Origin: an uncultured Planctomycetaceae bacterium
GTDB taxonomy: Bacteria > Planctomycetota > Planctomycetia > Planctomycetales > Planctomycetaceae
Length of the DNA stretch: 5,553 nt
Reading direction: 5' to 3'
NCBI GenBank assembly: GCA_903921605.1
Contig: CAIXQV010000555.1
Span: forward strand, 1-5,553
The notes under the pieces were generated by a model. It saw only the letters and a list, made by a program, of their open reading frames with translations, was not told the origin of the DNA and did not search any database. Shown one piece after another: positions 1 through 5,381 of this stretch. The position numbers were made by a program, and so were the translations under genes. Position 1 is the stretch's first letter; the number at the start of each line of letters is the position of its first letter.

Positions 1-140
1 CACCCAATAAACTAAACGATTTGTTCCATGCAGAACACTTTGAAAGGATCATTAGGAATTGGGAGTTGGGTAAATTCCAATTCCTTTCAGCCGATGACAT
101 CAACAACCTTCGTAAGATAATTGAGGCATTGAGACGATGA
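1..140 (+). CDS. C-terminal end of a polymorphic toxin (5' partial)
   Basis: Frame 3 is open from the left edge to a TGA at 138-140, giving 45 residues that end in a charged, helix-prone tail with the elements FHAEHFERIIRNW, FLSADDIN and KIIEALRR. The stop overlaps the ATG of the next gene in an ATGA (137-140), the coupling often seen between a toxin tip and its immunity gene. The gene begins outside the window, so no domain or catalytic residue can be assigned. I infer 'toxin tail' from its position and overlap and from the repeated toxin-tip/immunity layout downstream, not from a recognised family. It could instead be the end of an unrelated protein. Confidence 0.6.
   Translation, partial: PNKLNDLFHAEHFERIIRNWELGKFQFLSADDINNLRKIIEALRR
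54..85 (+). repeat. 9-bp perfect inverted repeat inside the toxin tail
   Basis: AGGAATTGG (54-62) is matched by its exact reverse complement CCAATTCCT (77-85) across a 14-nt loop. It lies in the last part of the toxin reading frame, about 50 nt before the next gene's start. No T-run follows, so it is not a typical intrinsic terminator. It could form an mRNA hairpin or be a chance match in AT-rich DNA. Confidence 0.4.
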
Positions 141-532
141 GTGACTGCATTCGTATATTCGAAATTGCTATTCGTCGGGACGAACTGGGGGAGTTTGAGG
201 AACTGTCATGGGATCTCGTTCCTCTCGTGGACCCGAAAGAGACTCTGCACCTGGAGCCAAACGGCCTGCCAGCCGTCGGAACGTCCGTAGTCCCCGGCAT
301 GGTTCTGGTCGGAAAAATTGGCAAGTCAAAGTCCTATCCAACGTCACGAAAACCAACGAGCTTGGAGTTAAATGCGTTGAGTTTTGATAACTTGCGTCGC
401 CAATTTGGTGGTCTATGGGTAGACCGGGCATTCCGAGTACCTGAGGGTTGCTTTGGCGAAGTCGCTGAGGCAAAAATGAGTGCACAAGACGACGGGACCC
501 CGGTAGCTGTAATTAAGTTACGAATCTCGTAG
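137..532 (+). CDS. Small RpoB-like protein, candidate immunity protein
   Basis: A 131-residue acidic protein with no signal peptide or membrane segment. Residues 53-61 (PGMVLVGKI) and 86-109 (LRRQFG, then WVDRAFRVPEG, then FGEV) follow in order the bacterial RNA polymerase beta subunit motifs 'VGDILVGKV', 'LLRAIFGEK', 'D.SLRVP.G..G.V'. The end, PVAVIKLRI, resembles the strand that follows in beta. The rest of beta is absent, so this is a stand-alone domain and not a polymerase subunit. The ATG at 137 overlaps the TGA of the upstream toxin tail, which puts it in immunity position. A GAGG at 123-126 is a plausible ribosome site. Known: immunity genes directly follow toxin tips. Inferred: it neutralises the lost toxin, perhaps by mimicking the beta subunit. 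The similarity is recalled from motifs and was not computed. Confidence 0.7.
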   Translation: MSDCIRIFEIAIRRDELGEFEELSWDLVPLVDPKETLHLEPNGLPAVGTSVVPGMVLVGKIGKSKSYPTSRKPTSLELNALSFDNLRRQFGGLWVDRAFRVPEGCFGEVAEAKMSAQDDGTPVAVIKLRIS

Positions 533-629: not shown

Positions 630-1661
630 TTGATTGAAGGCGTGTACCAGCGTCGTGAGGCCGGGTATCTGGATGAACAACGTCGCTGGGAGGAGTTCCG
701 TGAGAAAGCGAAAGACATTCTGAATCAAGGCGTTCAGAACTGGGCCTCCCTGCGAGCTGCAGCGCAGACTGCGTTTGAAAAAGGTGACGCAGAAATGGAG
801 CAGCAGCGAAATCGGCTGTTCGCTTCCGAAGCCGGTCATCTGCAATGGCACGAGAACCGCTGGCTCGAAGACAAAGCCGCAGTCGACCGCGAAATTGCTG
901 AATCTGCGGAAGCCAACGCGGCTGTTGTGGACAAAGTGCTGGACGGGATTCAACTGACACTGGATGTTGCAGGATTCGCTCCAGGCGTTGGAGCCGTCCC
1001 GGATGTGATTAACGCGATGATCTCCGCAGGTCGAGGCAACTACGGCGAGGCACTCTTCAACCTCGCAGTTGCCATTCCCTTCTGGGGCGATGCGGCCAAA
1101 GGCGGCAAGATGCTCGCCAAAGCCGGACAGGAGGGCATAACCCATGCCGATGAAGTCATCAGCATGAGCACCGCTCTTGCGAAGAACGGAGACAAAGCGA
1201 AGGATATTCTCAAGGCGGGAGATGAAACGGGGAATGCATTTGGGAAGAATCTGGATGAGGTTGCGAAAGATGATGCGATCGTGCATATGCTTGATGACGG
1301 GGAGGATATCTCAGCCCTCGGAATCACCGCGTTTTCTCAGTTCAAGTACGCGTCAAGATTCGGCTTCAAGTCGTATGATGAGTTAGCCGCTGCGACAAAA
1401 GGCATGGGTGTCGAGGTTCACCATCTAATAGAAAAACGCTTTCATGAGGTGATGGGCCAAGAGCGAGGGGAAATGCTGAGCATCGTTCTGACTCCAACAG
1501 AACATCAGAAATTCACAAATGCGTGGCACGCCCATTTTCCACGACTGCGAGAGGCAGCGCACATTCCATACAACGAGTTGTCCCCGAAGCAGATTGAGGA
1601 AGCTGCTCGGGAAATTTACGCTGGCTTCCCTGAGATTCTAAAAGCACTAGGATTGAATTGA
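630..1661 (+). CDS. Orphan polymorphic-toxin C-terminal module with HNH/EndoVII-like tip
   Basis: A 343-residue frame with three parts. Residues 1-97 are rich in Glu, Arg and Gln and probably helical or coiled coil. Residues 98-166 are a hydrophobic, glycine-rich pre-toxin segment (motifs LDVAGFAPGVG, PDVINAMISAG, IPFWGDAAKGGK) of the kind that precedes toxin tips in Rhs, CDI and related proteins. Residues about 240-343 form the tip, with VEVHHLIEKRF (H264, H265, E268), LTPTEHQ (H292), FTNAW and a helical end IYAGFPEILKALG. The HH...E...H pattern suggests a treble-clef HNH/endonuclease VII nuclease acting on nucleic acid. No delivery domain or signal peptide is present. The start is weak: TTG 630 has no clear ribosome site, the frame is closed by TAG 591, and the first ATG is 795. 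It is therefore probably a displaced tip and may not be translated. The tip may be related to myxobacterial Sit toxins, which is inferred mainly from its neighbour. Confidence 0.75.
   Translation: MIEGVYQRREAGYLDEQRRWEEFREKAKDILNQGVQNWASLRAAAQTAFEKGDAEMEQQRNRLFASEAGHLQWHENRWLEDKAAVDREIAESAEANAAVVDKVLDGIQLTLDVAGFAPGVGAVPDVINAMISAGRGNYGEALFNLAVAIPFWGDAAKGGKMLAKAGQEGITHADEVISMSTALAKNGDKAKDILKAGDETGNAFGKNLDEVAKDDAIVHMLDDGEDISALGITAFSQFKYASRFGFKSYDELAAATKGMGVEVHHLIEKRFHEVMGQERGEMLSIVLTPTEHQKFTNAWHAHFPRLREAAHIPYNELSPKQIEEAAREIYAGFPEILKALGLN
921..1125 (+). repeat. Pre-toxin core, copy 1
   Basis: This encodes the hydrophobic glycine-rich segment of the orphan toxin and is the most complete of three copies. 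It shares an exact 32-bp block (999-1030) and an exact 31-bp block (1092-1122) with copy 2 (2761-2792 and 2854-2884). Copy 3 (4171-4335) matches mainly at protein level. The conservation makes it a natural site for recombination between toxin modules. Confidence 0.85.
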
Positions 1662-1664
1662 CCT

Positions 1665-2501
1665 ATGAGAATCTACCATTATATCTGCTTCAATGCCTCG
1701 CCAGACCACGTGACAGAATTGGAACGAGTTGGTATTTCGATCAAAGCTAAGAATTCTGCAGCTTTCTCTGTCTATGACGACGATTCACGATGGCCTGAAG
1801 TGCAATGCTTACTGAATAGCTGGCACGTGAAGTGGCGTGATCATATTGAATACTCAGATGAAGACCTGTCTTCGTCAGCGTATCTGCATATTATCGGCGC
1901 CCCTGAAGCAGCGATCCCCCATCCCGAGAAGAAAAGCGGTTGGAAGGCGGCAACTTACGATCTTTCCAAATATTGCGGCACTTGCGGAAGCCACAAGCTT
2001 CAAATTCATCCATTCCAGCTAATTGAGGCGCCGAAATTTGGAACAGATGATGTCGTGTCGCTTTATTGGGTCTACGACGAATACTTTGTTCGAACGGAGA
2101 TTTGGAATCGGGTTTTCCAGCCGTTCGGAATCGAGTCGCTGCCGGTTCTCCGTCACGAGAGTCGGTTGCCGCTGGAAACGGTCGTGCAGTTGAAGATTGA
2201 CGACATTTCACAGTTTCCACTCGACGCTGGAGACAAATGGGACTCCTCTGTCTGTGCTGTGTGTGGACAGAAGAAGAACTGTGGCTCTCCACGGACACCA
2301 TACTTTCCGCAGTTTGTGGGAAATCCGGAAGGCCACCTCTTTAAGACGCAGGAGTTATTCGGTGCTGGATTGATTTCAGCGCGTGCTGTGGTTTGCAGCA
2401 ATGAACTCTATCGCGTGATGATGTCTGCGGGCGTTCGCGGTTTGAAATTCGAGCCGCAAGAGATGGTGTGCACTGGCCAGACATCACGCGGGGCCCGGTG
2501 A
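1665..2501 (+). CDS. Double-CXXCG protein, SitI6-like candidate immunity protein
   Basis: A 278-residue soluble protein with two CXXCG motifs, CGTCG at C104/C107 and CAVCG at C197/C200, with C205 close behind. It probably binds zinc through them. The end contains an aromatic segment (GHLFKTQELFG) followed by a helix and GLRGLKFEP, the layout I recall for the double-CXXCG family first noted as Myxococcus paralogues and now called SitI6-type immunity proteins. Between the two knuckles is a YWVYDEYFV...VFQPFGI segment. It starts 3 nt after the toxin stop, with only a weak AGG (1649-1651) upstream, so translation is probably coupled to the toxin frame. Its role would be to bind and block the 630-1661 nuclease tip. 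Family membership is from motif memory; the pairing is inferred from adjacency. Confidence 0.75.
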   Translation: MRIYHYICFNASPDHVTELERVGISIKAKNSAAFSVYDDDSRWPEVQCLLNSWHVKWRDHIEYSDEDLSSSAYLHIIGAPEAAIPHPEKKSGWKAATYDLSKYCGTCGSHKLQIHPFQLIEAPKFGTDDVVSLYWVYDEYFVRTEIWNRVFQPFGIESLPVLRHESRLPLETVVQLKIDDISQFPLDAGDKWDSSVCAVCGQKKNCGSPRTPYFPQFVGNPEGHLFKTQELFGAGLISARAVVCSNELYRVMMSAGVRGLKFEPQEMVCTGQTSRGAR

Positions 2502-2502
2502 T

Positions 2503-2907
2503 TGCGTCTGGAGAACTCGCGAGCCAAAGAACGATTATTCTAGATTCTCTCCGCGTTGGAACTGGGCGATAAGAACAGGTACGGTTCAAAAACCTCGTTC
2601 TTGCGAACCGGAAAAAGAGCGGCTCAAAGAACACGCTGATCGCTGGCGTCACGATCTCGAAGATCTTCGTAAGCGGGAGCCGATTGACTGGGAGAAAGAG
2701 CTCGACTGGGTCCAGTTCGTCCTCGATGTCGCCGGTTTTGTTCCGGTTCTCGGTGCGGGACCGGATGTGATTAACGCGATGATCTCCGCAGGACGAGGCA
2801 ACTGGGGCGACGCAGCAATCAACGCCATCGCAATGATCCCGTTCTGGGGTGACGCGGCCAAAGGCGGCAAGATGCTCGCCAAAGGAACGCAGGTGCCATG
2901 CACTTGA
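2503..2907 (+). pseudogene. Truncated toxin remnant carrying pre-toxin core, copy 2
   Basis: Frame 1 is open from 2446 (inside the previous gene) to TGA 2905-2907 and has no ATG before the core. From about 2620 it encodes a charged helical stretch (RWRHDLEDLRKRE), then LDWVQFVLDVAGFVPVLGAGPD and a hydrophobic segment ending FWGDAAKGGKMLAK, closely matching residues 98-164 of the orphan toxin at 630-1661. Homology ends at LAK: the last residues (GTQVPCT) are read from the CAGGTGCCATG repeat that begins at 2890, and the frame then stops. Both the N-terminal delivery part and the toxic tip are missing. The 80 or so bases after 2501 look like non-coding junction sequence. Confidence 0.8.
2701..2889 (+). 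repeat. Pre-toxin core, copy 2
   Basis: Second copy of the conserved core, with two blocks identical at DNA level to copy 1 (2761-2792 and 2854-2884). The region between the blocks differs at many third positions and several amino acids (GNWGDAAINAIAM against GNYGEALFNLAVA). The copies are therefore diverged relatives with locally homogenised ends, not a fresh duplication. Confidence 0.85.
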
Positions 2908-2963
2908 CAAGGAAGTGGCGCCCAACACACAACGCAGGAACACAGGTGCCATGCACGTGACAG
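2884..2963 (+). repeat. Composite CAGGTGCCATG repeat, left copy
   Basis: Two near-identical 20-bp units, CAGGTGCCATGCACTTGACA (2890-2909) and CAGGTGCCATGCACGTGACA (2943-2962), lie 53 bp apart. A CCAACACACAACGCAGGAA stretch (2922-2940) leads into the second unit. GTGC-CAT-GCAC within each unit is a small inverted repeat. The element cuts off the copy-2 toxin frame on its left and leads into the small zinc-type gene on its right. A related composite lies at 3291-3344. Confidence 0.8.
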
Positions 2964-2983
2964 AAGCATATGAAAGGAGAAGC

Positions 2984-3289
2984 ATGGCAAATCTGTTTCC
3001 CGGAAAAACGCGTTGTGCTCTCTGCGGAAAAGTCATCGAATCAGCCGAAACGACAGTAGGCTTTCCACCATTCATCCCAAATTGGCACAGCCTCTCTAGA
3101 TATTCAGATGCGGCACTTCACACTGTTTGTTTCGAACAATAGGAGCTTCGAGCCGATTTCGAGAAGCTATACCGTGGCTATCAGTCGATCATGCAGTCTC
3201 GTCCGATGAACATCGAACTTGCCGCTGCAAATGAGTGGGGGGAGAGTGCGTTCGACTCGCTCTTCGCGGAGGGGAAGACTGCGGACTGA
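2984..3289 (+). pseudogene. Small CxxC/HxxC zinc-type protein interrupted by an in-frame TAG
   Basis: ATG 2984 follows a good ribosome site (AAAGGAGA, 2973-2980, slightly close to the start) and gives 52 residues with CALC (C11, C14) and HTVC (H46, C49), probably one zinc-binding treble-clef or LIM-like knuckle. A TAG at 3140-3142 ends it, but the same frame continues for 48 protein-like residues (ELRADFEKLYRGYQ, then SRPMNIELAAANEWGESAF) to a TGA at 3287-3289. The natural protein is therefore about 101 residues, broken by one nonsense base change. Readthrough, or re-initiation at ATG 3191, is possible but unsupported. I half-recognise the N-terminal half as a small family in toxin arrays but know no function. 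An upstream ATG at 2849 in the same frame only reads through the repeat and the copy-2 core out of frame, so it is not the start. Confidence 0.75.
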
Positions 3290-3290
3290 A

Positions 3291-3344
3291 AGAACACAGG
3301 TCCACCAAACACAGGACGAATACAGGTGCCATGTACGTTGGCAC
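3291..3344 (+). repeat. Composite CAGGTGCCATG repeat, right copy
   Basis: AGAACACAGGT (3291-3301), CCACCAAACACAGGACGAA (3302-3320) and TACAGGTGCCATGTACGT (3321-3338) appear in the same order and orientation as the corresponding parts of 2884-2963, with about 27 bp missing from the middle. GTGCCA (3326-3331) and TGGCAC (3339-3344) form a perfect 6-bp inverted repeat with a 7-nt loop. Together with the left copy it brackets the small zinc-type gene. Confidence 0.75.
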
Positions 3345-3345
3345 G

Positions 3346-3479
3346 AATGTATGGATTCGACGCTGTCTCAATGGCTTCACAGAAATCAATCGCACTGGCT
3401 GCCGCTAGAGGTGACTGCCGCCGACGTCTGGCGCGTGCGTGATGAAATGTTGCGGCTCTATTTTGGAATTGGATCATGA
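3346..3479 (+). pseudogene. Leftover toxin C-terminal tail
   Basis: Immediately right of the repeat, frame 3 encodes about 42 residues from ATG 3351 (MDSTLSQWLHRN, then PLEVTAADVWRVRDEMLRLYFGIG) to TGA 3477-3479. That stop overlaps the next gene's ATG at 3476 (ATGA). A helical tail ending at the immunity start is what the last part of a toxin tip looks like. The frame stays open leftwards to 3219, but that part only reads the repeat and the zinc-type gene in the wrong frame. It may be the far end of the toxin whose core stops at 2889, or of another toxin. No catalytic motif is present. Confidence 0.55.
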
Positions 3480-4102
3480 GAAGTCGAACCAGACAGACGG
3501 TATACAGTATTGGCCGGCAATACGACGACGATACTTTCGCCACAACGTATTTGGAGGCCTGCGAGGACGATTTTGCGATTTGCCCTCTTTGTCGACGCGC
3601 TAAGCGAATTCGCCCGGATACATCATGTCGGCTGATTTGGAAGACGTCAAAGCAAGGAAACAAAGTCGGGCGACTGGGGGATCTTACGTGGCATTCAAGT
3701 GATGACTGCACTCTGTTATCGGATCGTCTCAAGCAGGTCATGGAGCCGTATTTGCATGAGGTAACCGTTCGAGAGGTCTCTTACGAGAACACTTTTGAGA
3801 TTCAGAATCAGAATTCCGGCAAACCCCTGTGGGAGGTCACCGATTTGCCAGTGGCCTCGGTGGATATCGAGGCCACTGGTGCCCGCCTGACAAAGCAGTG
3901 TTCTGAATGCGGACATAGAACTTATAACTTCAATGCGGAGATGTTGCTGACTGTGGATCGCAGTTCATGGCATGGATGGGACCTTTTTACGCTACGTGAG
4001 TTCCGGCTGTTTTTTGTCTCTGAACGAGTCCTTGCGTGTATCCAGCAAGTGAACGCGACCAACTACGAAATCTGGCGCGAGGCCGTCATCAGCGATGACT
4101 AA
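3476..4102 (+). CDS. Double-CXXC candidate immunity protein
   Basis: A 208-residue soluble protein with CPLC (C36, C39) and CSECG (C142, C145), so a probable two-knuckle zinc site. After the first knuckle come WKTSKQGNKVGRLGDLTW and a helical TLLSDRLKQVMEPYL. After the second come WDLFTLREFRLFFVSERV and a Q-V-N-A-T-N stretch. The DLF...EF...SERV order parallels the end of the double-CXXCG protein at 1665-2501 (HLF...ELF...), so the two look like distant relatives in one immunity superfamily. The ATG overlaps the stop of a toxin-tail remnant (ATGA) and has only a weak ribosome site, implying coupling. Its toxin is gone or reduced to that tail, so it is an orphan immunity gene. The family is inferred from motif layout only. 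Confidence 0.7.
   Translation: MRSRTRQTVYSIGRQYDDDTFATTYLEACEDDFAICPLCRRAKRIRPDTSCRLIWKTSKQGNKVGRLGDLTWHSSDDCTLLSDRLKQVMEPYLHEVTVREVSYENTFEIQNQNSGKPLWEVTDLPVASVDIEATGARLTKQCSECGHRTYNFNAEMLLTVDRSSWHGWDLFTLREFRLFFVSERVLACIQQVNATNYEIWREAVISDD
3848..3879 (+). repeat. Perfect 12-bp inverted repeat inside a coding region
   Basis: CCAGTGGCCTCG (3848-3859) and its exact complement CGAGGCCACTGG (3868-3879) are separated by GTGGATAT. G-U and U-A pairs can extend the stem inward, leaving a four-base loop. No T-run follows, so it is not a standard terminator. It falls between the two zinc knuckles of the 3476-4102 protein, where it encodes PVASVDIEATGA. Confidence 0.8.
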
Positions 4103-4383
4103 TTAAAACGCTGTTCCATCTGAGCTCCTGTGCAAATCTGAAGCAGTTGCTATGCACTCGACCAGCTGCGGTCGACGCAGCAGTTGAAGGCGTCAAAATC
4201 ACACTCGACGTCGGTGGGCTTGTACCGGGAGTCGGCATCGTTCCAGATGTGATAATCGCCATGATCTCCGCCGGACAAGGCAACGACTCCGAAGCTCTTT
4301 TCAGCCTCGCCTGTGCGGTTCCATTCTGGGGAGAAACTGTCAGACTCGAAGAACTCATTAGTGAGTATGGAAATGGGTACTAG
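4099..4383 (+). pseudogene. Truncated toxin remnant carrying pre-toxin core, copy 3
   Basis: Frame 1 is open from 4099, just after the previous gene, to TAG 4381-4383. The only early start is TTG 4147. It encodes VDAAVEGVKITLDVGGLVPG, PDVIIAMISAGQGN and a hydrophobic run ending VPFWGE, matching residues 100-155 of the 630-1661 toxin. Homology stops after FWG and the last 15 residues (TVRLEELISEYGNGY) are unrelated, so the DAAKGGKMLAK end and the whole tip are missing. The frame overlaps the next gene's start by 17 bp. It is a core with both ends deleted and is unlikely to be functional. Confidence 0.75.
4171..4335 (+). repeat. Pre-toxin core, copy 3
   Basis: Third copy of the core seen at 921-1125 and 2701-2889. 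The block ATGATCTCCGC (4261-4271) is shared by all three copies, but most other third positions differ. It is therefore older or from a different lineage than the copy 1/copy 2 pair. Confidence 0.75.
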
Positions 4384-4639
4384 GCTCGAGGTAATTGACT
4401 TCGTGAAAATTCCGGGGCGCGATGATCTCTTGGTTGTTGTAGACTTGTTAAGCGGTACTGAGGATCTGGAAGGACGCGAGTTCGTTCTTTTAAAGTCGAA
4501 CGCAGTCTGGCGTGTTACGTCGATTGCAACCCATCCAGCTCCAGGCGATCACTCGGTAAGCACATCCAGAATTGCACTGGGGCTGGAGCCGCAGGGGGCT
4601 CCGACGATAGAGGTTGGGGATTTTCTGGAAGCAGTATGA
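4367..4639 (+). CDS. EF-Tu domain-2-like small protein, candidate immunity protein
   Basis: From ATG 4367 (or ATG 4373) this gives 90 residues, predicted all-beta. The order VIDFVKIPGRDDLLVVVDLL, SGT, LEGREFVLL, WRVTSIATHP, SRIALGLEP, IEVGDFLEA follows domain 2 of translational GTPases (F-x-I-x-GRG-x-VVxGxVxxG, a central strand, V-x-x-I, a leucine-rich strand, then 'xxGxxL'). The GTPase domain is absent. The frame is open upstream to 4313, but that part overlaps the copy-3 toxin frame, so a start inside it is preferred; no strong ribosome site is seen. It directly follows a toxin core, the place of an immunity gene, and abuts the next gene with no gap. Inferred role: toxin neutralisation, possibly by imitating an EF-Tu surface. 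The fold call is from motif pattern, not alignment. Confidence 0.65.
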   Translation: MEMGTRLEVIDFVKIPGRDDLLVVVDLLSGTEDLEGREFVLLKSNAVWRVTSIATHPAPGDHSVSTSRIALGLEPQGAPTIEVGDFLEAV

Positions 4640-5299
4640 ATGAATATGCTCCAACCTCCATTGTCCGTCATCTTGCTATTTCCTCGCGTAATGCTGGGCG
4701 ACTCGCAAGCCATCGTTCATTTACGTTCAGGGCTATCTTCTGTCGTGTTCGCCGACACAGTGATTCAAACACTCTTGTCCACATGTGGCGAAATTGGGCA
4801 AGTTGCATTCTCAAAACCGAATTCTGGGTGTGCAACATCTCGTGAAATTGCGTTACGCTTGGCACAGAACACTGTGATCGCGATACCGAGCAGTGGAGAA
4901 TTTGAATTGTCACCCGGAACACTCGGATTCGAGTCCCGCTCCGGTCGGATTTGTCGGATTTCAGTTTCTTTCTCACCCGAGACTAAGTCGCTTGGCGAAT
5001 TGCCGTCGTTTATTGACAACATTCGAGCGTTAAGCGAAGTCGATTCCGAAATTGATCTCGACGCCATCACGCAAGCTGCTTTGGGGATACGGTGCGGTGA
5101 TACAAACTTGGTTTTGCCAGTTGTTATTCTCTCAACGGAAGGTGAAGTTGATGCCTTTGTAAGCTATGAGACATATGAAGGCGCATCGAATCCTAAGTTG
5201 TTTGTGGCTACGCATAACGATCGTGTACCGCAGACTGGCAAAGTGTTTCAGAGGAGTGTTAAAGGATTGGTCTCAATTGGTACATTCGCAAGATGCTGA
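4640..5299 (+). CDS. Unrecognised 219-aa protein, coupled to the EF-Tu-like gene
   Basis: I do not recognise this protein. It begins with a hydrophobic strand-like stretch (LSVILLFPRVML) and has no lysine or arginine before it, so a signal peptide is unlikely. It then alternates strands and acidic helices: ISVSFSPETKSLGELPSFI, a stretch with SEVDSEIDLDAITQAALG, and VILSTEGEVDAFVSYETYEG. No cysteine pairs or catalytic motif stand out. ATG 4640 starts on the base after the previous TGA, with GGAAG (4627-4631) eight bases upstream, so the two are probably co-translated. A second in-frame ATG lies at 4646. Position suggests a second immunity-type gene or a helper of the 4367 protein. The end (GTFARC) may be altered, since another frame looks coding from about 5292. 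Confidence 0.65.
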   Translation: MNMLQPPLSVILLFPRVMLGDSQAIVHLRSGLSSVVFADTVIQTLLSTCGEIGQVAFSKPNSGCATSREIALRLAQNTVIAIPSSGEFELSPGTLGFESRSGRICRISVSFSPETKSLGELPSFIDNIRALSEVDSEIDLDAITQAALGIRCGDTNLVLPVVILSTEGEVDAFVSYETYEGASNPKLFVATHNDRVPQTGKVFQRSVKGLVSIGTFARC

Positions 5300-5381
5300 G
5301 AATCTGCTGATGGCTGACGTGGCAAAGCTGGGGGAGTTTACTCCGGACAGCACATCAACCGTGTTAGCACTTCCGGGATAG
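5292..5381 (+). pseudogene. Possible coding remnant after the 219-aa gene
   Basis: Frame 3 reads DAENLLMADVAKLGEFTPDS, then TSTVLALPG, to TAG 5379-5381. Its composition (acidic, few Cys/Trp/Arg, many codons ending in G or C) looks coding. It starts just where the 219-aa frame ends, in a different frame. It may be the real end of that protein after a frameshift near 5270-5297, or a fragment of another gene. No homologue is recognised. Confidence 0.3.

Follow-up and report, generated by a model that had tools for sequence, protein, structure and literature searches.

The window analyzed here, meaning the whole 5,553-nt stretch of DNA from an uncultured Planctomycetaceae bacterium, begins inside an upstream coding frame whose stop codon overlaps the start of a gene for a 131-aa protein, and continues with further candidate cassette genes and copies of a repeated linker (Table 1). 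A preceding sequence-only reading had described the 131-aa protein as an RNA polymerase beta-subunit (RpoB)-like fragment occupying the immunity position behind a toxin tail. The open reading frame, its ATG start, and the ATGA overlap are present in the window, and the RpoB motifs listed for the translated protein are real and collinear.

Table 1. Coordinates of the features in the window
Feature	Position	Strand	Description
Upstream coding frame, last 45 codons	3..140	+	Open at the window edge; stop TGA at 138-140; interpreted as the terminal part of a toxin tip
Flap gene	137..532	+	ATG start, 131 aa; stand-alone RNA polymerase beta-flap domain protein, candidate immunity protein
ATGA stop/start overlap of tail and flap gene	137..140	+	Upstream stop TGA at 138-140
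Remodelled flap tip	344..430	+	Codons 70-98; predicted helices 75-80 and 83-93; seven columns longer than in RpoB
Next cassette, 343-aa ORF	630..1661	+	Pre-toxin linker at about 929-1122; C-terminal HHL motif near the end, no family match
278-aa ORF in immunity position	1665..2501	+	Three bases behind the 343-aa ORF; Cys motifs CGTCG and CAVCG
Second pre-toxin linker copy, broken cassette	2691..2884	+	Direct repeats D1 (74%) and D3 (92%)
208-aa ORF, candidate immunity gene	3476..4102	+	Weak SitI6/Imm11-type matches
Third pre-toxin linker copy, broken cassette	4173..4305	+	Direct repeat D1 (66%)

The 131-aa protein (hereafter, the flap protein) was compared with structures and protein families by sequence, profile, and fold. 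In a single-sequence search of all PDB sequences, all 27 distinct matches at E ≤ 10 were RpoB (best E 0.0063), as were 39 of the 40 matches at E ≤ 1 obtained with a two-row profile (best E 1.1e-5; the remaining match was a nucleoside hydrolase at E 0.17) and all 35 matches at E ≤ 1e-3 obtained with a 70-row profile (best E 7.3e-8). The RpoB match in PDB strengthens as the alignment of the flap family gains rows, from 1 to 2 to 70. Two RpoB chains, 8dkc_C (E 7.3e-8) and 9n9p_C (E 2.4e-6), scored best against the profile of the family. As a single sequence, the flap protein matched the Pfam model PF00562 (RNA_pol_Rpb2_6) at E 1e-4 and 22.0 bits, just under the curated cut-off of 23.4, and four RpoB models of NCBIfam at a best E of 2.7e-5, with scores far under the full-length cut-offs, as expected since the protein consists of one domain only. 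No model of a known immunity or defence family in Pfam or NCBIfam matched it, only RpoB models did, and PADLOC gave no match at E ≤ 0.1. With the two-row PDB profile, the matched stretch corresponds to residues 832-937 of Escherichia coli beta, which lie in the flap.

The predicted structure of the flap protein (pLDDT 92.5, pTM 0.81) recovered the flap fold: the best 50 rows in each of two fold comparisons with PDB, assigned by PDB title and chain, were second-largest subunits of RNA polymerases or the flap itself, with identities of 17-30% to the polymerase subunits among the rows listed. The RpoB relationship, which had been put forward as refutable by a profile search, is thus borne out by both profile and fold. 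The earlier remark that the protein holds nothing else of beta was also correct, and the comparison of the model with PDB structures sharpens it, in that what is present is one complete domain, the flap. With the other beta domains absent from its 131 aa, the protein is not a functional RpoB but a flap domain standing alone, and it belongs to a family of its own.

Three protein searches delimited this family at 76 protein clusters, all at E ≤ 5.1e-19; the next match followed at 2.5e-3, and the 33 matches from there on all carry PF00562. Family members are 78-183 aa long (69 of 76 within 123-157 aa), and by our own count of the table 42 of them have a precomputed PF00562 annotation and 34 do not. 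The family alignment comprises 70 of the 76 members, leaving out the short P0071, P0072, and P0074-P0076 (78-109 aa) and also P0018 (123 aa), which was omitted without good reason; 11 positions are invariant in its 70 rows (D15, G18, P29, H38, L39, G48, G54, G59, P73, W94, and G107). A tree built from 18 sampled RpoB rows and 26 rows of the flap family separates the two groups by one branch (100/100; length 3.1). The family rows were 23 picked across the list plus the copies from genomes G140, G816, and G046, all three of which were flagged as long branches, and G816 and G046 may group falsely. As regards an origin from the planctomycete's own rpoB, the three same-genome RpoB rows grouped with other RpoB, but the length of the branch to RpoB means that the donor of the domain cannot be named. 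The best explanation of these data is that the flap protein is probably a whole beta-flap domain that left the polymerase long ago.

Being short, close to the contig edge, and accompanied by broken cassettes in the window, the ORF could also be a decayed or split rpoB fragment or an assembly artefact without a function of its own. This is very improbable, given the 76 members with their narrow length range and invariant positions, a codon pattern (described below) typical of a constrained protein, and a separate RpoB-length frame of 1243-1249 aa in three of the four genomes that carry a flap gene. These frames rule out a split rpoB, with the caveat that a genome search of G816 returned no second RpoB match at E ≤ 0.01; the existence of the flap family already speaks against a fragment.

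The DNA downstream of the flap gene is a cassette array. Copies of the pre-toxin linker, each at least 133 nt, lie at 929-1061, 2691-2823, and 4173-4305, the second and third being 74% and 66% identical to the first, and these three copies place the flap gene of the window in a toxin-cassette locus. The 343-aa ORF carrying the first copy ends near an HHL motif, which we take to be perhaps that of a nuclease tip. The 278-aa ORF behind it had no Pfam match, and the 208-aa ORF gave only below-cut-off matches to TIGR02264 (E 0.0015), PF09535 (E 0.0011), and PF07791 (E 0.0089). Among 148 genomes of the class, 10 contained the linker, at 12 places in total, within frames of 277-2154 aa that differ in their C-terminal ends; some of these tips resemble nucleases by motif. 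At three of these places (L033, L037, and L041), an extra segment lies between the linker and the C-terminal end and resembles a Hint/intein element by motif. Between the broken cassettes of the window, a short repeat around CAGGTGCCATGCAC occurs three times (2890-2909, 2943-2962, and 3323-3342), a number of copies reached in none of 200 shuffles; its exact 14-base core was absent from the 44 other loci compared.

A closely comparable arrangement was found in genome G140 (locus L024), where the same 4-nt ATGA overlap (3751-3754) joins a flap gene to a related upstream frame. The two tails share 28 of 44 residues (64%) and are thereby better conserved than the flap proteins that follow them, which share 52 of 131. 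Half of the identical tail residues (14 of 28) are encoded by different codons in the window and G140, indicating that the tail frame is or was coding. Neither tail matched a Pfam or NCBIfam model, and the G140 tail gave no PDB match, each comparison being confined to the terminal 45-58 residues. Run against 397 genomes of the class at E ≤ 0.001, a profile made from both tails returned only G140, itself one of the rows of the profile, and thus the tail was not seen away from a flap gene in this set. Window-tail matches at two places on Mycetohabitans plasmids (E 0.5 and 0.7), one of them inside a 2.4-kb hypothetical ORF, were treated as chance. The toxin tail claimed by the sequence-only reading accordingly stands as a coding frame with an ATGA overlap, while its identification as a toxin, in 45 residues with no family match, derives from context.

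The G140 locus contains additional elements. After the flap pair comes a second tail/ORF pair (4371-4700 and 4690-5277, the latter encoding 195 aa) with an 11-nt overlap; the pair had no Pfam match, and the other best scores of its frame were E 0.18 in NCBIfam and E 0.44 in PDB, with no match among plasmids. GACCCCTTTCC-type repeats occur before, between, and after both pairs and further on (3448-3545, 4169-4365, 5251-5358, and 6820-6880), beside a Y1 transposase on the minus strand (2747-3415; PF01797, E 1.4e-15) that scored 77.5 bits against the REP-associated type NF047646, just under its cut-off of 80. The upstream frame of the flap gene is cut short behind these repeats and the transposase, which together are perhaps a way in which such cassettes move. 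In their sequence organization, the window and the G140 locus look like arrays of tip/immunity cassettes.

DNA around a flap gene could be read at five loci, namely the window, L001, L024 of G140, L025 of G046, and L030 of G816. The flap gene follows the same tail with an ATGA overlap at two of them (the window and G140), whereas no tail was detected by the tail profile at the other three (best E 1.3). Contig ends were rejected as the cause of the missing tails, since at least 406 bases are readable upstream in each case (406 bases in L001, where the contig ends, 8,232 in L025, and several thousand in L030). The search for other toxin tips at these three loci comprised only an inspection of the frames and a few family scans. 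In L030, a small ORF on the minus strand with a hydrophobic stretch (7427-7714) overlaps the start of the flap gene with its stop, again by ATGA; it is perhaps a different partner of the flap gene, or a chance arrangement. In L025, whose contig ends 137 bases downstream, the flap copy (8233-8562) is shortened and divergent, matching profile positions 3-63, and a short zinc-ribbon-like ORF lies upstream of it. The immunity position proposed for the window consequently gains a second example in G140. The absence of the tail from L001, L025, and L030 speaks partly against the expected linkage of homologs to one toxin tip, five loci being too few for any statement about where homologs mostly occur.

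The flap genes without a tail are possibly orphans, or genes with other partners. Such copies could be accommodated by a modified form of the immunity reading, in which the flap gene guards against this toxin family and is retained also in genomes without the toxin, as protection against neighbors. The three tail-less copies and the truncated upstream frame of G140 agree with this proposal, and orphan immunity proteins have been described in another system in the available part of PMC10539506. As a full account it is nevertheless quite unlikely, as no toxin is known against which the copies would protect.

Flap genes are rare in the whole genomes searched. With the 70-row alignment, and across overlapping genome sets, they were found in four whole genomes in all (G001, G140, G046, and G816): in 3 of 397 genomes of the class, 2 of 392 of the phylum, 1 of 45 in the family and order of G140 (the identical 45 genomes), 2 of 170 in the family of G001 (to which G046 also belongs), 1 of 176 in the order of G024, and 1 of 4 in the family of G816. 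The class, phylum, and G024-order sets were draws from larger groups, and the genome counts therefore come partly from draws. A scan of genome contigs with the single flap sequence gave no match, and one with a six-row alignment gave 19 loci, comprising one family member (L001) and 18 RpoB-length frames; because the patterns used in the six-row scan are present in 51 of the 76 family members, rarity in genomes is only roughly measured. Viral contigs yielded no relative in scans with the single sequence, the 70-row alignment, or the tail alignment, and the flap protein had no tblastn match in phages and plasmids.

This distribution bears on the proposal that the flap protein is a transcription regulator, a free flap that sequesters a flap-binding factor such as sigma region 4 or NusA, with its position behind the tail being incidental. 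The model shows the entire flap fold including helices in the tip, the beta flap is bound by sigma region 4 according to the available text of PMC7403470, and the tail is absent from three of five loci, all as a regulator would allow. However, a housekeeping regulator would not be expected to be so rare and patchy, with four genomes in the whole-genome searches, nor to have a rebuilt flap tip (described below), nor to keep the same upstream frame beside flap proteins that are only 52/131 identical. A regulatory role thus appears unlikely.

Position and array context make immunity the leading reading: the tail and ATGA overlap common to the window and G140, the codon pattern of a coding frame, and the surrounding cassettes all argue for it. 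Against it stand the lack of an intact toxin domain, a tail without a toxin-family match, the three tail-less loci, and the small ORF that takes the place of the tail in G816. The true absence of the tail at three loci slightly lowered an initially somewhat higher estimate, and on balance the flap protein is predicted to have an immunity function, which we consider probable. In that case, the upstream frame would encode the terminal part of a toxin tip, which the flap protein would bind and neutralize.

The identity of the domain further suggests how neutralization might work. The upstream toxin may act on RNA polymerase by attacking or clamping its flap, to which sigma region 4 and several phage inhibitors bind, and a free flap with a rebuilt, better-binding tip could compete for the toxin and so hold it off the polymerase. 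That the flap protein is a polymorphic-toxin immunity protein in which a whole flap domain serves as a decoy for the toxin is the explanation tentatively preferred here, although the decoy step goes further than the immunity step.

The flap tip bears on the choice between a decoy and reuse of the fold. In the alignment of 26 family and 18 RpoB rows, a seven-column gap inside the tip is identical in all 18 RpoB rows, and the two helices predicted by the model sit at this insertion. P73 and W94 are conserved in all 70 rows of the family alignment, E77 in 68, and L76 in 66, and an RpoB-tip-like L[RK]..[FY]G motif is found in 40 of the 76 members. In RpoB, the tip helix is contacted by sigma region 4. 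The tip has been rebuilt and the body kept, as would be expected if the tip now served a different partner or held its former one more tightly. Under fold reuse, the flap would have been recruited as a stable scaffold whose rebuilt tip binds a toxin unrelated to RNA polymerase. Such reuse shares the context evidence with the decoy explanation, and the low identity to RpoB, the enlarged tip with its conserved P73, L76, E77, and W94, and the nuclease-like tips presumed behind the same linker fit it; the whole flap was kept, however, and the RpoB-like tip motif persists in just over half of the members. It is rather unlikely as the overall explanation, even though a reused scaffold accounts for the low identity and rebuilt tip nearly as well as a decoy does. 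The tip is unfaithful to that of RpoB and the identity is 17-30%, which weakens the decoy relative to reuse. Since no intact toxin domain was found, the tip being represented in the window and in G140 by its end alone, the two could not be told apart. If the protein does confer immunity, decoy action would be the likelier mechanism and fold reuse a less likely though substantial one.

Immunity proteins usually cover the active site of their toxin, revealing little of what the toxin targets. If, in contrast, a gene in immunity position encoded a free copy of the target domain, the target could be read directly from it; in the present case it would be the beta flap of RNA polymerase. Toxins that act by halting transcription would be implied, along with a ready pair of inhibitor and target. 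An undescribed class of polymorphic toxins that kills via the flap, with the flap protein as a target-decoy immunity protein, is accordingly a possibility to be entertained with some reserve. Even if the fold was merely reused, a core enzyme domain has been put to a new purpose in this family, which comprises at least 76 stand-alone flap proteins whose tip is rebuilt.

In the literature on decoy or mimicry immunity, RpoB or the flap, and RNA polymerase toxins, within the portions of text available, no description of a stand-alone flap immunity protein was found. The terms RNA polymerase, RpoB, flap, mimic, decoy, and SBHM are absent from the first 300,000 of the 357,715 characters of the 2012 survey of polymorphic toxins (PMC3482391). 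Among agents acting on RNA polymerase, the accessible part of PMC9990079 names only small-molecule antibiotics, and in that of PMC12135965 RpoB serves as a loading control. In the available text of PMC12136450, the words "mimic" and "paralog" do not occur and "decoy" appears only in the title of a reference.

The locus nevertheless resembles known systems in several respects. In the available part of their survey, Zhang et al. (2012, PMC3482391) describe toxin cassettes that are arrayed with immunity genes next to them, and the window shares with such arrays a small ORF directly behind the end of a coding frame and an array with a repeated pre-toxin linker. A weak, below-cut-off likeness to the SitI6/Imm11 double-CXXCG immunity proteins belongs to the neighboring ORF at 3476-4102 and not to the flap gene. 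Relative to the RpoB flap within PF00562, the flap protein lacks the other beta parts and has a longer, rebuilt tip; in PDB entries 3TBI and 3WOE/3WOF, the flap is likewise present on its own, as an isolated domain of 228 and 130 residues, respectively. The flap is a known target of inhibitors: according to the consulted portion of PMC7403470, sigma region 4 binds there and phage proteins, gp39 among them, act on it, and this source together with PDB titles shows T4 gp33, Thermus phage gp39, AsiA, and P7 acting on the beta flap, marking it as a vulnerable spot. These proteins bind the flap or displace sigma, whereas the protein at 137-532 is itself a flap. The closest parallel in logic is Cpi1, the immunity protein of the papain-like protease toxin Cpe1, which, in the part of PMC12136450 available, competes with the substrate instead of plugging the active site. 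The flap protein is proposed to compete for its toxin in the same way; unlike Cpi1, it would itself be a relative of the target.
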